DNA of 64,000 nt from an uncultured Ulvibacter sp. (lineage in GTDB: Bacteria; Bacteroidota; Bacteroidia; Flavobacteriales; Flavobacteriaceae): NCBI GenBank assembly GCA_938041335.1, contig CALIAF010000020.1:35859-99858 (forward strand), in the 5' to 3' direction. Below the pieces are notes generated by a model. The model saw nothing but the letters and a program-made list of their open reading frames with translations, did no database searches and was not told the DNA's origin. Below, one piece after another: positions 33,885-36,768 of the stretch. Position 1 is the first letter of the stretch. The number at the start of each line of letters is the position of its first letter. Position numbers and translations under genes: made by a program.

Positions 33885-34532
33885 CTACATTTCCATTTTC
33901 TCAAGTTCGTCATAATTACCCTTAAGTCGTTTAAGAAGAATACCATAAATAATTCGGTAAAAAAGAAGGACGAGTCCTATCATAATTATACCACCAATTA
34001 TCTGACCCATAAAAAACACTTTTGTGAAAACTTCTGGTGGTACCGCATCATACTGCGTTGTAGATTTTTGAACGGCAGCTGCTAGCTCGTCACGGTGTAG
34101 ATAATAAAAAATATTTACTCCAATCATTAACAAGATGGTAGTACCCACATTATAAATTACAAAGTACTTTACGGTTTGTCTAGTTTTAAGAATATTCTTC
34201 ATTAACGTTTTGACAGAATCTGTTACTTGTATTTTCTTGTGATTTGTCCAGAACAGATATATAAAGAACGCAAAAACGCAATAATTAAAAATATTTATAA
34301 TTAGAAATACGGTGTCCATACCCATCTCTTCAATAAATTTCTGGGTAGATTCTGGAACTAGAAGCGCTAGAGTTAACCAAAAAAGGAGCTCTGCGATGCT
34401 AATAATAAAGATCCATTTTACAATAGAGCTTGATTTTTTTAATAACATTTTATAGATGTCATTAAAAGACAATACAGGGAACTCTTGCTCCGTTGTTTGC
34501 CATTTTGATTTTAATAATTCTAACTCATCCAT
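33885..34532 (-). CDS. Four-helix membrane protein paired with a sigma factor
   Basis: A 215-residue protein with an N-terminal soluble part of about 40 residues (MDELELLKSKWQTTEQEFP) and four hydrophobic segments near residues 40-60, 75-95, 120-145 and 170-195. It follows the sigma gene at a 4-base distance. Such a small membrane protein directly after an ECF sigma gene is likely to be its regulator (anti-sigma function), although it shows none of the known anti-sigma motifs. Family not named by me. Confidence 0.65.
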   Translation of the reverse strand: MDELELLKSKWQTTEQEFPVLSFNDIYKMLLKKSSSIVKWIFIISIAELLFWLTLALLVPESTQKFIEEMGMDTVFLIINIFNYCVFAFFIYLFWTNHKKIQVTDSVKTLMKNILKTRQTVKYFVIYNVGTTILLMIGVNIFYYLHRDELAAAVQKSTTQYDAVPPEVFTKVFFMGQIIGGIIMIGLVLLFYRIIYGILLKRLKGNYDELEKMEM

Positions 34533-34536
34533 ATAG

Positions 34537-35031
34537 TTACGGATTTAATACATTACGTAATTTTACTTTGATTCGATTCATCTTTACTCTTGAGTTTACC
34601 TCACTAATACCTAAAGTTGCCGAAATTTCTTTATAATTCTTATCCTCTAAATAGAGGAATACAAGCGCCTTCTCAATATCATTTAAATCCTTCACTGCGG
34701 CGTACATTAGCTTTAATTGCTCTTCTACTGTATCGTCATAATCTTCTGAAGATATCTTAAAACTAACTCCTTCAAAATCCTGCGTCTTTATACGTCTCTT
34801 AGATTTTCTATAGAGCGTAATGGCTGTGTTTAAAGCCACTCGATACATCCAAGTACTAAACTTGCTATCTCCTCTAAATTTAGGATAAGCGCGCCATAGT
34901 TGTATGGTTATTTCTTGAAACAGATCATTATGAGCATCCCTATTATTTGTATATAGCCTACATATTTTATGTACTATATTTTGGTTTGCTTCAAGCTCCG
35001 TCACAAATTTATGTTCGAGTTCTTTTTCCAA
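34537..35031 (-). CDS. ECF-like RNA polymerase sigma factor
   Basis: A 164-residue sigma factor. Region 2: AHNDLFQEITIQLWRAYPKF, then KFSTWMYRVALNTAITLYRK. Region 4: EKALVFLYLEDKNYKEISAT followed by LGISEVNSRVKMNRIKVKLR. First gene of a two-gene operon with the membrane protein after it. Upstream, GTAAC-N16-CTAC could be its own promoter, and the divergently transcribed micro-ORF array starts about 330 bases away behind a similar site. Confidence 0.9.
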   Translation of the reverse strand: MEKELEHKFVTELEANQNIVHKICRLYTNNRDAHNDLFQEITIQLWRAYPKFRGDSKFSTWMYRVALNTAITLYRKSKRRIKTQDFEGVSFKISSEDYDDTVEEQLKLMYAAVKDLNDIEKALVFLYLEDKNYKEISATLGISEVNSRVKMNRIKVKLRNVLNP

Positions 35032-35057
35032 TGGTTTTTTTGCTGGTTATGGTATAA

Positions 35058-35082
35058 GTAGTTTAATGCTTGATAAAGTTAC
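35058..35082 (-). promoter_or_regulatory. ECF-type promoter candidate of the sigma gene
   Basis: On the minus strand GTAAC (35082-35078), 16 bases, CTAC (35061-35058), 27 bases before the ATG at 35031. The spacing equals that of the site at 29098-29122. Confidence 0.4.
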
Positions 35083-35303
35083 AAGGGTTTAGTTATTATT
35101 TAATTAATTATAAAAGTTTGTTAGTCATTTTATCAAGTTTAGAATAAATGAGACTTTTTTTTCTTAAAATTGAGAGGTCAATATTAATTCCATAAAATTT
35201 CAGAAATAAAATAAAACTAAGGTTTATAGGGAGTAGGGCGCTTCTATTTTACCGTAAACATGTTAAATTTATGTTAAATAACTACTTTGTAATGCATAGT
35301 ACT

Positions 35304-35328
35304 GTAACAAAATGCGTGTTTATTCTTC
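35304..35328 (+). promoter_or_regulatory. ECF-type promoter candidate of the micro-ORF array
   Basis: GTAAC (35304-35308), 16 bases beginning AAAAT, then CTTC (35325-35328), 30 bases before the first micro-ORF. No TAnnTTTG box is present nearby. The rest of the stretch from 35083 to 35303 is AT-rich and holds no gene that I can see. Confidence 0.42.
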
Positions 35329-35358
35329 TTTTATATAGAGACCACAAAAACATACATT

Positions 35359-35445
35359 ATGAGAACATTAGACAGCAATCAATTAACAGAAAGAATATCA
35401 ACTTCAATAGGCTTCACTTGGAACTCCAAAAGAAGATTTAGATAA
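35359..35445 (+). CDS. Tandem micro-ORF 1 (28 residues)
   Basis: Begins MRTLDSNQLTERIS, has the variable centre TSIGFT and ends WNSKRRFR. It is the first of three tandem paralogues. Conserved ends, variable middle and many synonymous differences between copies (AGC/AGT, AAT/AAC, AGA/CGA, TCC/TCA) argue that it is translated. Net charge is strongly positive at the C-terminus. No signal peptide, no membrane segment. Function unknown; a peptide precursor, an antimicrobial or toxin peptide, or a regulatory leader are all possible. Confidence 0.68.
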   Translation: MRTLDSNQLTERISTSIGFTWNSKRRFR

Positions 35446-35513
35446 ACATTTAAAAAACCGACAATTTTGTTATCCTTTACTTCAATCAGCATCCACCCAT
35501 AAAGACATATATC

Positions 35514-35600
35514 ATGAGAACATTAGACAGTAACCAATTAACAGAACGAGTTTCAACTTCAAAGTCATATACTTGGAATTCAAAAAGAAGATTTAGATAA
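35514..35600 (+). CDS. Tandem micro-ORF 2 (28 residues)
   Basis: MRTLDSNQLTERVS, centre TSKSYT, end WNSKRRFR. It has the same length as copy 1. Compared with copy 1 nine codons differ, five of them silently, and the replacements lie in residues 13 and 17-19. A 68-base spacer separates it from copy 1. No Shine-Dalgarno sequence, as is normal in this phylum. Confidence 0.68.
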   Translation: MRTLDSNQLTERVSTSKSYTWNSKRRFR

Positions 35601-35643
35601 TCTTTAAAGCAGTGCACCATTTATCAGTCAAAAAACAATCATT

Positions 35644-35733
35644 ATGAGAACATTAGACAGCAATCAATTATCAGGAAGAGTAGTAACTACATTAGCATAC
35701 GTTTGGAACTCAAAAAGGCGCCACAGATCCTAA
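35644..35733 (+). CDS. Tandem micro-ORF 3 (29 residues)
   Basis: MRTLDSNQLSGRVV, centre TTLAYV, end WNSKRRHRS. It is the most diverged copy, yet Trp is again at residue 21 and WNSKRR is intact although encoded by partly different codons (AAA AGG CGC against AAA AGA AGA). A 43-base spacer follows copy 2. Confidence 0.66.
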   Translation: MRTLDSNQLSGRVVTTLAYVWNSKRRHRS

Positions 35734-35760
35734 ATAGGAGTTAATTTTAAATCAATTACC

Positions 35761-35892
35761 ATGAAAAAGAACATGAATATTAGAATAAGAAAATGGACAG
35801 GAGCAAGAGCATCACAAGTAATAATTTGCTCATTAGAACACAAGCGAAAAAAGTTACACCCGGCGTGCACCGTTTCTAAATACGCTTTTTAA
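35761..35892 (+). CDS. Basic small ORF closing the array (43 residues)
   Basis: Begins MKKNMNIRIRKWTGARASQV and continues IICSLEHKRKKLHP to the end ACTVSKYAF. Not clearly homologous to the three copies before it, but similarly basic, 27 bases behind copy 3, and before the shared terminator at 35911. Two cysteines. GGAG is seen about 25 bases upstream. Function unknown. It may be an accessory peptide or a chance frame in the same transcript. Confidence 0.5.
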   Translation: MKKNMNIRIRKWTGARASQVIICSLEHKRKKLHPACTVSKYAF

Positions 35893-35910
35893 GATGTACC
35901 AACCAATTTT

Positions 35911-35952
35911 AAAGCCGAATTTTGTTTATACAGAATTCGGCTTTTGTTTTTT
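35911..35952 (+). terminator. Terminator of the micro-ORF array
   Basis: Stem AAAGCCGAATT / AATTCGGCTTT followed by a T-rich tail, 18 bases after the last small ORF. Confidence 0.9.
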
Positions 35953-35954
35953 AG

Positions 35955-35962
35955 TATCTTTG
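35955..35962 (+). promoter_or_regulatory. -7 box (TATCTTTG) of the following lipoprotein gene
   Basis: Exact TAnnTTTG match directly behind the terminator and 18 bases before the ATG at 35980, so the lipoprotein gene is transcribed separately from the array. Confidence 0.6.
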
Positions 35963-35979
35963 ATGCTTAAACCAAATTC

Positions 35980-36477
35980 ATGAAAAATCTTGTGTTACTA
36001 TTCGTACTTGCTGTTTCTATTTCTGCTTGTAAAAACGATACTAATAAACTAGAAGTAGCCCCAGCGCCAACGCAGGTTACCATGCAAGATTTATCTTGGG
36101 TTCTAGGTGATTGGATGAATATTAATACCGAGACAGAATCATATGAGCACTGGGAAAAAGCGGAAGATGGTAGTTTTGTGGGAGAGAGTATGACATTAAG
36201 ACAAACAGATACTGTATTTGCAGAGCGTATGAAAATGTATGTCGAGAATGATAAAATCCAATTATATATTGAAACTATAGGAAATGCACCTAATCCCGTG
36301 GTGTTTACGCTCAAGCAGGAAGCAGAACATCCGTTTACTTTTGAGAATCCGCGTAATGAATTTCCTTCACAGATTGTCTACACAAATCCAGAGCCTAATA
36401 CCATTCACGCCTGGGTAGCAGGTTTTGTAAACCAAGTACCTCAAAAGCAAGATTTCTACTTTAAGCGTGCAGAATAA
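35980..36477 (+). CDS. DUF6265-type lipoprotein
   Basis: A 165-residue protein with a lipoprotein signal (LFVLAVSISAC) and one small domain: MQDLSWVLGDWMNINTETES, YEHWEKAEDGSFVGESMTL, then NEFPSQIVYTNPEPN. The pattern L-S-W-x-x-G-x-W and the FENPRNEFPSQIVY block are those of DUF6265, a lipocalin-like beta-barrel family of unknown function. It ends where the convergent DUF1272 gene ends, with no gap. Confidence 0.8.
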   Translation: MKNLVLLFVLAVSISACKNDTNKLEVAPAPTQVTMQDLSWVLGDWMNINTETESYEHWEKAEDGSFVGESMTLRQTDTVFAERMKMYVENDKIQLYIETIGNAPNPVVFTLKQEAEHPFTFENPRNEFPSQIVYTNPEPNTIHAWVAGFVNQVPQKQDFYFKRAE

Positions 36478-36768
36478 CTATCGCTTTTCTGGCGGGACAT
36501 CTTTATTTTTTTCTAACCTTTTCTGAAATACCAGGGCATCAATTGGCTTATAAACAATAGCAATTGAGGCGGGGTTTTGTTGTAGTTCTTCTTTGAGTCT
36601 AATGGGTCTTGGCACGAAATTGCCTCCGCAATTAGGGCAAACATTATACAAAACATTTGAAACACAATCACAACAAAAAGTACACTCATAAGTACAGATC
36701 ATCGCGGCTGTAGATTGAGGAGGGAGTGCTTTATTACAGTTTTCGCAGGTAGGCCTAAGTGCTAGCAT
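36478..36768 (-). CDS. DUF1272 zinc-ribbon-like protein
   Basis: A 96-residue protein, start at 36768 because the family begins M-L-x-x-R-P-x-C. Cysteine pairs CENC, CTYECTFCCDC and CPNCGGNFVPRPIR form a small zinc-binding unit typical of DUF1272. About 35 variable residues follow. Open frame continues upstream of this start but is unlike the family. Function unknown. Confidence 0.85.
   Translation of the reverse strand: MLALRPTCENCNKALPPQSTAAMICTYECTFCCDCVSNVLYNVCPNCGGNFVPRPIRLKEELQQNPASIAIVYKPIDALVFQKRLEKNKDVPPEKR

Follow-up and report, generated by a model that had tools for sequence, protein, structure and literature searches.

The staphylococcal PSM-alpha operon encodes several near-identical short peptides without a leader. 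Type I toxins of the Ldr/Ibs kind are hydrophobic, membrane-spanning peptides accompanied by antisense RNAs, and arrest peptides such as TnaC, about 25 to 30 residues long, carry their conserved part next to the stop codon. Here we describe arrays of tandem short open reading frames (ORFs) that encode a peptide of 28 to 29 residues, called peptide A below. They were noticed in a stretch of 64,000 nucleotides from an uncultured Ulvibacter sp., which we call the window, and they occur widely in its family, the Flavobacteriaceae. These ORFs are protein-coding and under purifying selection at the protein level, and most of the arrays share a compound promoter.

Two regulatory systems described in the literature bear on that promoter. 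In the part of PMC11237479 available to us, a HAAS-PadR-PspC system is proposed from gene neighbourhoods; pairs of HAAS and PadR are described together with PspC and Toastrack, and these pairs are proposed to replace two-component systems in the sensing of membrane stress. According to the available part of PMC9723704, F. psychrophilum has a CGT-box motif, SM6, which is induced in low nutrients and ascribed to an extracytoplasmic function (ECF) sigma factor. SM6 precedes rhodanese, ATP-binding cassette (ABC) and type IX secretion system genes, and TAnnTTGY is motif SM5 of the same species. A literature search, confined to one library, returned nothing relevant among the records listed on WNSKRR or tandem small proteins in Flavobacteriaceae, on arrest peptides, on TGTAAC with ECF factors in flavobacteria or on ECF promoters in Bacteroidetes, and nothing further on PadR with PspC in flavobacteria. 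In the accessible portion of a ribosome profiling study of F. johnsoniae (PMC6847099), the term match was confined to the reference list.

A family of coding micro-ORFs

The window array consists of three ORFs on the forward strand, identified by direct reading of the sequence, the ORF list and family statistics: copy 1 (MRTLDSNQLTERISTSIGFTWNSKRRFR, 28 aa, 35359..35445), copy 2 (MRTLDSNQLTERVSTSKSYTWNSKRRFR, 28 aa, 35514..35600) and copy 3 (MRTLDSNQLSGRVVTTLAYVWNSKRRHRS, 29 aa, 35644..35733). A sequence-only reading of the window had pointed out that all three begin with MRTLDSNQL and carry WNSKRR from residue 21, and that copies 1 and 2 differ in nine codons, five of the differences being silent; direct reading and a recount gave the same result. 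The arrays are a larger finding than that reading reported. On another contig the window genome carries a second three-copy array followed by a fourth ORF, found by DNA search, in which the copies are more diverged. Relatives in the genus have arrays of one to three copies, two of which (L027 and L029) are orthologous in place to the two arrays of the window genome. Moreover, of 299 family genomes sampled, 108 give a match to a profile built from 13 copies (E ≤ 0.01 per genome, with about three chance matches expected); by subset, matches were obtained in 96 of 249 good genomes and in 85 of 236 genera. Because of the second three-copy array and of these 108 genomes, a chance origin is excluded. 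The suggestion of a tandem family of real peptides is thus borne out by the profile matches, by the alignment of the copies and by the codon selection described below.

Beyond the family, a wider profile (E ≤ 0.001) gave matches in 17 of the 393 genomes sampled from the order, every one in the window's family, and in five of the 396 sampled from the class, three in the family and two marginal. The two marginal matches (G362, G643) were dropped; their loci (L257, L258) hold no peptide ORF. The peptide family was therefore confirmed nowhere outside the window's family in the order and class samples. In these two samples no more than 21 candidates were scored in each genome, which makes the absences less telling than the counts imply. 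Matches at E 0.04 to 0.54 in small genomes of the genus (G005, G006, G008, G010) were not counted as members, and the loci L011, L031, L032, L312 and L313 were left out of the analysis.

The copies were compared mainly in 80 named loci, which are 80 of at least 118 stretches returned by a pattern scan and containing AGTACTGTAACA and ATGAGAACNTTA. By construction, the right half of the palindrome discussed below, TGTAACA and the MRTL of the first copies are present in all 80. Their titles include Winogradskyella, Aquimarina, Aequorivita, Algibacter and Psychroserpens, as well as Flavobacterium in two contigs of a metagenome-assembled genome (MAG), genera that we take to belong to Flavobacteriaceae. 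Without any C-terminal filter, 78 complete first ORFs were obtained, 68 of 28 aa and eight of 29 aa; WNxKRR is present in 76 of them and WNxKRR[YF][RK] occupies residues 21-28 in 70. The two exceptions are L111, which reads WNLRRR, and L137, an unrelated 39-residue ORF despite its pattern match. Later ORFs, picked by their N-terminus, are all 28-29 residues long (62/62), and 61 of them have WNxKRR. A filter on WNx[KR][KR]R gave 139 copies, 138 of them of 28-29 residues; this filter partly builds in the invariance of W21, N22 and R26, and the analysis was accordingly repeated without it. Three of the 80 loci yield no copy in the filtered set, two (L081 and L139) being cut by the end of the locus and the third being L137. 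The one copy of 19 residues (L141) was set aside, which leaves the 138 copies used for selection and charge.

Both ends of the peptide are conserved and its centre is not. Residue 23 is free, residues 11-15 and 18-20 are highly variable, and the MRTL N-terminus is kept also in later copies, which the scan pattern did not select. The net charge averages +6.0 and ranges from +5 to +9, and cysteine occurs in four of the 138 copies. Mean identity is 81% between copies of one array and 60% between different loci. In the 68 loci that offer 700 bases or more, a single copy is present in 26, two copies in 30, three in seven, four in four and five in one; Aquimarina loci span the range from one to five. 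An extra identical copy lies at +1017 in L149, about 0.8 kb 3' of the array, and in L142 a deviating copy has WNSNRR in place of WNxKRR; the two are possible signs of recent duplication and loss.

The selection acting on these ORFs was expressed as the ratio of nonsynonymous to synonymous differences per site (pN/pS), a descriptive value here since the compared pairs share ancestry. Within arrays, for copies chosen on their N-terminus only, pN/pS is 0.27 (85 pairs), against 1.83 and 0.85 in the two shifted frames; the WNx[KR][KR]R-filtered copies give nearly the same result, 0.27 against 1.87 and 0.87. Split by part, the within-array ratio falls to 0.14 over residues 21-28 and rises to 0.49 over residues 13-20. 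Across first copies it is 0.45 over residues 5-28 (2850 pairs; 1.46 and 0.81 in the shifted frames) and 0.20 over residues 21-28. The ratio therefore lies below 1 and conservation is specific to one frame, in line with the earlier proposal that the conserved ends are protected at the protein level. No internal stop was present among the profile matches listed for the 299 family genomes. The refuting conditions named in the sequence-only reading thus do not refute it. This codon-level selection in a single frame also bears on the idea of a structured non-coding RNA with incidental ORFs, in support of which nothing was found. Folding gave no excess of structure, with a mean z of +0.42 for 39 first-copy ORFs (-2.66 to +2.12) and values of -0.73 to +1.82 for pieces of the window, and Rfam returned no match across window positions 34500-36500. 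We rejected the structured RNA on these three grounds and give it virtually no credence.

The family has no match in the libraries searched. Peptide A and the product of the ORF that follows it have no family match in Pfam, NCBIfam, PHROGs or PADLOC (E limits 1, 1, 1 and 0.01), the best PHROGs value being E 0.19. Against PDB sequences the best value for peptide A is E 0.071, to the N-terminus of a ribosomal protein, which is no evidence of kinship. With one consensus-like peptide as query and an E limit of 10, tblastn gave no match among 50,697 records of phages and 72,556 of plasmids. An origin from a phage or mobile element is thus unsupported by the phage, plasmid and PHROGs searches.

The array is usually followed by a second kind of ORF. 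In the window this is ORF B, of 43 aa (MKKNMNIRIRKWTGARASQVIICSLEHKRKKLHPACTVSKYAF, 35761..35892, forward strand), described at first as basic and unrelated to its neighbours; it is basic, but counterparts hold the same position in other arrays. They are 63% identical in the nearest relative and 33% in the second array of the window genome, and further out they are too diverged for certainty. An ATG ORF begins within 170 bases after the last copy in 64 of 68 loci examined; 39 of these 64 ORFs have 43-45 residues, 16 have 22-26 and two have 48. The 43-45-residue products have a net charge of +2 to +9, and 32 of the 39 end in a basic-aromatic stretch such as WKGxKRYAH. Of the 16 short ORFs, found mainly in Winogradskyella and Psychroserpens, 15 share M(K/R)xL(S/T)(K/R)I(I/V)..(S/D/T) and an acidic DDLxT-like patch, with a net charge of -2 to +1; the sixteenth (L105) looks like chance. 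In eight loci (L077, L080, L108, L121, L124, L147, L153 and L156) a near-neutral acidic-patch peptide of 22-24 residues, like MRALSKIVNTSNSLDDDLETIKL, replaces the basic one of 43-45 residues. In five groups drawn from 23 loci of other arrays, ORF B has a pN/pS of 0.11-0.32, shifted frames giving at least 0.77 where defined. ORF B is therefore also under coding selection, and it evolves faster than peptide A. For the window ORF B no candidate was present in the protein collection searched; a profile of ORF B finds 38 relatives, hypothetical or uncharacterised proteins where named. A terminator-like hairpin (AAAGCCGAATT/AATTCGGCTTT) followed by a T run, read by eye at about 35911..35953 on the forward strand, closes the unit, where a single terminator had been noted.

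The array promoter and its candidate regulators

Upstream of copy 1 the window carries a compact set of elements. Two direct repeats TGTTAAA, 11 bp apart (35261..35278, forward strand), precede TACTTTGT (35283..35290, forward strand), which from its recurrence in the named loci is likely to be the -7 element, of TAnnTTGY type, of a promoter P1. A palindrome scan returned CTACTTTGTAATGCATAGTAC (35282..35302), a predicted PadR-type operator that overlaps the P1 -7 box and abuts the -35 box of a second, ECF-type promoter, P2 (35303..35329, forward strand). P2 consists of TGTAAC (35303-35308), a 16-base spacer (N16) and CTTCT (35325-35329). The fair count of these elements comes from loci fetched by the peptide alone and not from the 80 pattern-chosen loci. 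The peptide profile fetched 55 loci, of which 10 duplicates and two without a peptide ORF were removed, the ORF being found with a WN filter. Among the remaining 43, AGTACTGTAAC stands upstream in 40 and the exact SM6-like boxes TGTAAC-N16-CGTCT in 38. In the 80 named loci CGTCT, which is not part of the scan pattern, occurs at that spacing in 77. The window promoter is thus a slightly deviating example, with CTTCT where most relatives have CGTCT. In the same 80 loci GTTA is found at -35 in 60, at -25 in 73 and at both in 59, the 11-bp spacing of the window repeats being a minor form (-36 in 11 loci); TAnnTTGY is present in 46 and TAnn[AT]TGY in 68.

Genome-wide, TGTAAC-N16-CGTCTW gave 45 sites in eight array-bearing genomes against three for a reversed control. 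Genes were read at 41 of the 45, the remaining four being arrays by position. By eye, the genes that follow look like DUF456-type membrane proteins, parts of ABC transporters, rhodaneses, DUF4870-type proteins, M61-like peptidases and ankyrin-type secreted proteins, besides the arrays. Outside the arrays, this promoter is thus often seen in front of genes for the membrane and envelope. In three genomes (L233, L235, L246) an ORF of about 85 residues (LNSNYQ...IKQRLKSRQ, with a hydrophobic C-terminus) lies directly behind an ECF promoter of the array type.

A conserved ECF sigma factor gene lies divergent from the window array, as described before (34537..35031, reverse strand; Pfam Sigma70_r2, E 1.7e-17), next to an ORF of 215 aa without significant Pfam or NCBIfam match (33885..34532, reverse strand). 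The array had been proposed to be under the control of this sigma factor. That an ECF-type element marks the family stands, on the strength of the 38 loci out of 43; the adjacent sigma factor as the controller is unsupported, and we dropped it on promoter comparison and adjacency. The sigma gene with its partner was found at the array in one of the 80 named loci (L132), 41 of which reach 1.5 kb or more upstream and 2 kb or more downstream; a sigma homologue of unspecified position is present in another (L140), and no sigma gene lies within the 3.1 kb read around the second array of the window genome. Of 60 sampled family genomes, 49 have a close homologue (E ≤ 1e-20), genomes without a detected array included, and in 42 the match reaches 75% identity or more. 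The promoter of the sigma gene itself also differs from that of the arrays in its -10 box: it reads TGTAAC-N15/16-(A/C/T)TAC.(A/T)A, and not CGTCT, in all 14 loci readable in the right orientation out of 30 sigma loci (homologues L196-L220 among them). The CTTCT of the window is intermediate between the two forms. The divergent sigma factor is a local neighbour of the window array, not a constant part of it. Neighbour genes were also set aside as a guide to function: none is universal in the 80 loci, the largest cluster is present in 42, and the clusters seem to reflect a small number of ancestral sites.

The palindrome points to another regulator. A Pfam search found one PadR gene in the window genome, and the promoter of its operon DUF4870-small ORF-PadR-PspC carries direct repeats like those of the array, together with a related palindrome. 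When one mismatch was allowed, the palindrome pattern gave 29 sites in ten genomes against one for the reversed-pattern control, one strand being counted. Outside arrays, nine sites of the class closest to the array sites, GTACT(A/T)TG...CA(A/T)A(A/G)TAC, were read, in genomes with a detected array and in others without. Every one of the nine precedes a PadR gene and is accompanied by direct repeats of the array kind; in seven a PspC-type ORF comes after it, and in the other two the locus ends too soon. Two further sites were left out of the reading, G087:2078637, the tenth of the class, and G042:1798579, an odd one. The promoter of the PadR operon (L075 2250-5222 on contig 4 of the window genome; L283-L300) is closely similar in nine genomes, a starting point for an operator logo. 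The arrays thus share operator and promoter elements with the PadR operon, and PadR is predicted from these common sites to bind the array palindrome.

Proposed function and its rivals

We propose that the peptides are stress-gated micropeptide effectors of an envelope response run by PadR/PspC and an ECF factor, a reading in which we place about half of our confidence. At rest, PadR bound at 35282-35302 would cover the P1 -7 box and abut the P2 -35 box; since the palindrome overlaps the one and abuts the other, PadR could gate both promoters. This step draws on the shared sites. Envelope stress sensed by the PspC protein would then free PadR from the shared operator, and the ECF factor would fire P2. 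Tandem copies would raise the dose of peptide. The peptides would finally be likely to protect the stressed membrane as effectors on its inner side, their charge of +5 to +9 and their aromatic-basic tail binding acidic phospholipid headgroups or the cytosolic side of a PspC/Toastrack complex. A further-reaching version, which we regard as doubtful, would have the WNxKRRYR tail dock the dose-tuned peptides on PspC/Toastrack, where they would shield the membrane and also act back upon the PadR switch that releases them, as a new phage-shock-type effector layer.

Several observations weigh against this proposal. The membrane or complex target, its weakest step, is a guess from the charge and from the company in the regulon, and no hydrophobic segment was seen in peptide A. 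Some of the ECF sites lie inside genes and are probably due to chance. Within the flanks given above, the 80 array loci contain no ORF of 100 aa or longer that resembles PadR, PspC or DUF4870, so the PadR link is drawn solely from shared DNA sites. These sites are mostly imperfect in the arrays, with no mismatch in seven of the 80 loci, one in 48 and two in 25, the right half being set by the pattern used for the scan. The PadR operon with its site is present, too, in G042 and G229, where no array was detected. A second class of sites, TTACTTTG-N5-CAAAGTAC, stands before other kinds of genes, so that resemblance of sites alone is no proof of PadR; related regulators may have related sites. Finally, AGTACTGTAAC is missing in three of the 43 loci fetched by the peptide (L048, L055, L260), which, together with the different promoter of L030, means that PadR control is not universal.

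Members of the second site class were seen in L076, L288, L295 and L296; the genes behind them look by eye like one for a membrane protein, which has a small winged-helix-like regulator close by, and one resembling CreD. As to the exceptional copies, L030 and L048 have GTTAA-type repeats in place of the palindrome, and L055 and L260 have neither. At L030 (2000-3700, in the relative G003) a diverged single copy, MRTRKNTLLTQANPNTNKFVWNSKRRFR, is accompanied by a second short ORF; by eye, a DUF5916-like gene lies on one side of them and a histidine kinase/response regulator pair on the other, and the promoters that flank them carry GTTAACG direct repeats. The L030/L048 type is possibly a branch of the family controlled by a response regulator, and the four exceptional copies could respond to different signals.

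The main rival leaves the regulation as it is and changes the target: the peptides would tune translation or transcription in stress by engaging, through the aromatic-basic tail, a nucleic-acid machine of the cytosol, be it the ribosome, RNA polymerase or an mRNA. The tail WNxKRR[YF][RK] is arginine-rich and aromatic without a hydrophobic stretch, which, with the net charge, would suit such a target, but composition is all that hints at RNA, and no significant relative came from Pfam, NCBIfam, PHROGs or PDB sequences; we consider this rival possible, if unlikely. The strong selection on the last eight residues before the stop codon, and the near-constant length of 28-29 aa in 76 of 78 first and all 62 later ORFs, would also agree with a nascent-chain sensor, in which the conserved C-terminus of each 28-codon ORF makes the ribosome translating it stall at the stop codon, so that the array acts by being translated. 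Such an arrest or attenuation leader would have a regulated gene downstream, whereas the window unit ends after ORF B and most other arrays end with a short ORF and a hairpin. The conserved MRTL, kept in later copies too, is likewise at odds with it, and we find a nascent-chain sensor quite unlikely.

Exported or matured peptides were the option raised at the outset, either signalling peptides or precursors of ribosomally synthesized and post-translationally modified peptides (RiPPs) with a MRTLDSNQL leader and a WNSKRR core. Tandem near-identical short ORFs with conserved ends would be expected of them, but no signal peptide was seen by eye, cysteine is rare, and the centre varies rather than an end, the C-terminus being the most conserved part. 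The earlier remark that no maturation enzyme or exporter adjoins the array holds at the window and, by eye, among the 20 most recurrent neighbour clusters. The RiPP precursor was rejected on its neighbours and on the pattern of conservation, and we hold any such matured or exported product to be highly unlikely. Tandem small ORFs in multiple copies per genome also recall type I toxins under antisense RNA control. The peptides are strongly hydrophilic and not membrane-spanning, and no antisense RNA was found by Rfam match, the sole search made for one; a toxin of this type appears extremely improbable.

Whatever their target, the arrays form a widespread family under strong selection, yet one that falls below the 40-residue minimum of the protein search used, with a compound promoter common to 38-40 of 43 loci. 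For a product of 28 residues they provide a naturally occurring example of gene dosage in tandem. If PadR binds the shared operator, the HAAS-PadR-PspC system would be tied to an unlinked target operon, and the regulon would be testable.

Comparison with described systems

The arrays resemble each of the tandem or short-peptide systems in part. Like PSM-alpha, peptide A is produced as several near-identical short leaderless peptides from one operon; unlike it, it has by eye no aliphatic-rich hydrophobic face, and no exporter recurs beside the arrays. Tandem micro-ORFs in variable copy number are common to the arrays and to the Ldr/Ibs toxins, the latter being hydrophobic and membrane-spanning. 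With TnaC peptide A shares its length and a conserved part by the stop codon, whereas the arrays are without a downstream regulated gene.

Rhodanese and ABC-type genes lie downstream of the array-type promoter as they do in the SM6 regulon, in the available part of PMC9723704; no micropeptide array appears in its table there, and the comparison was made without the SM6 -35 box. The large genus g127, presumed to be Flavobacterium, gave no match among the rows listed, yet two loci are titled Flavobacterium sp. (MAG Ww433: L087, L139). The available main text of PMC11237479 does not contain the term "small peptide", and the arrays differ from the HAAS-PadR-PspC-Toastrack system in being unlinked to the operon in the loci seen, in their added ECF promoter and in an operator that is predicted. 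They agree with it in that the kind of palindrome, the direct repeats and the -7 region are common to the arrays and to the PadR operon.
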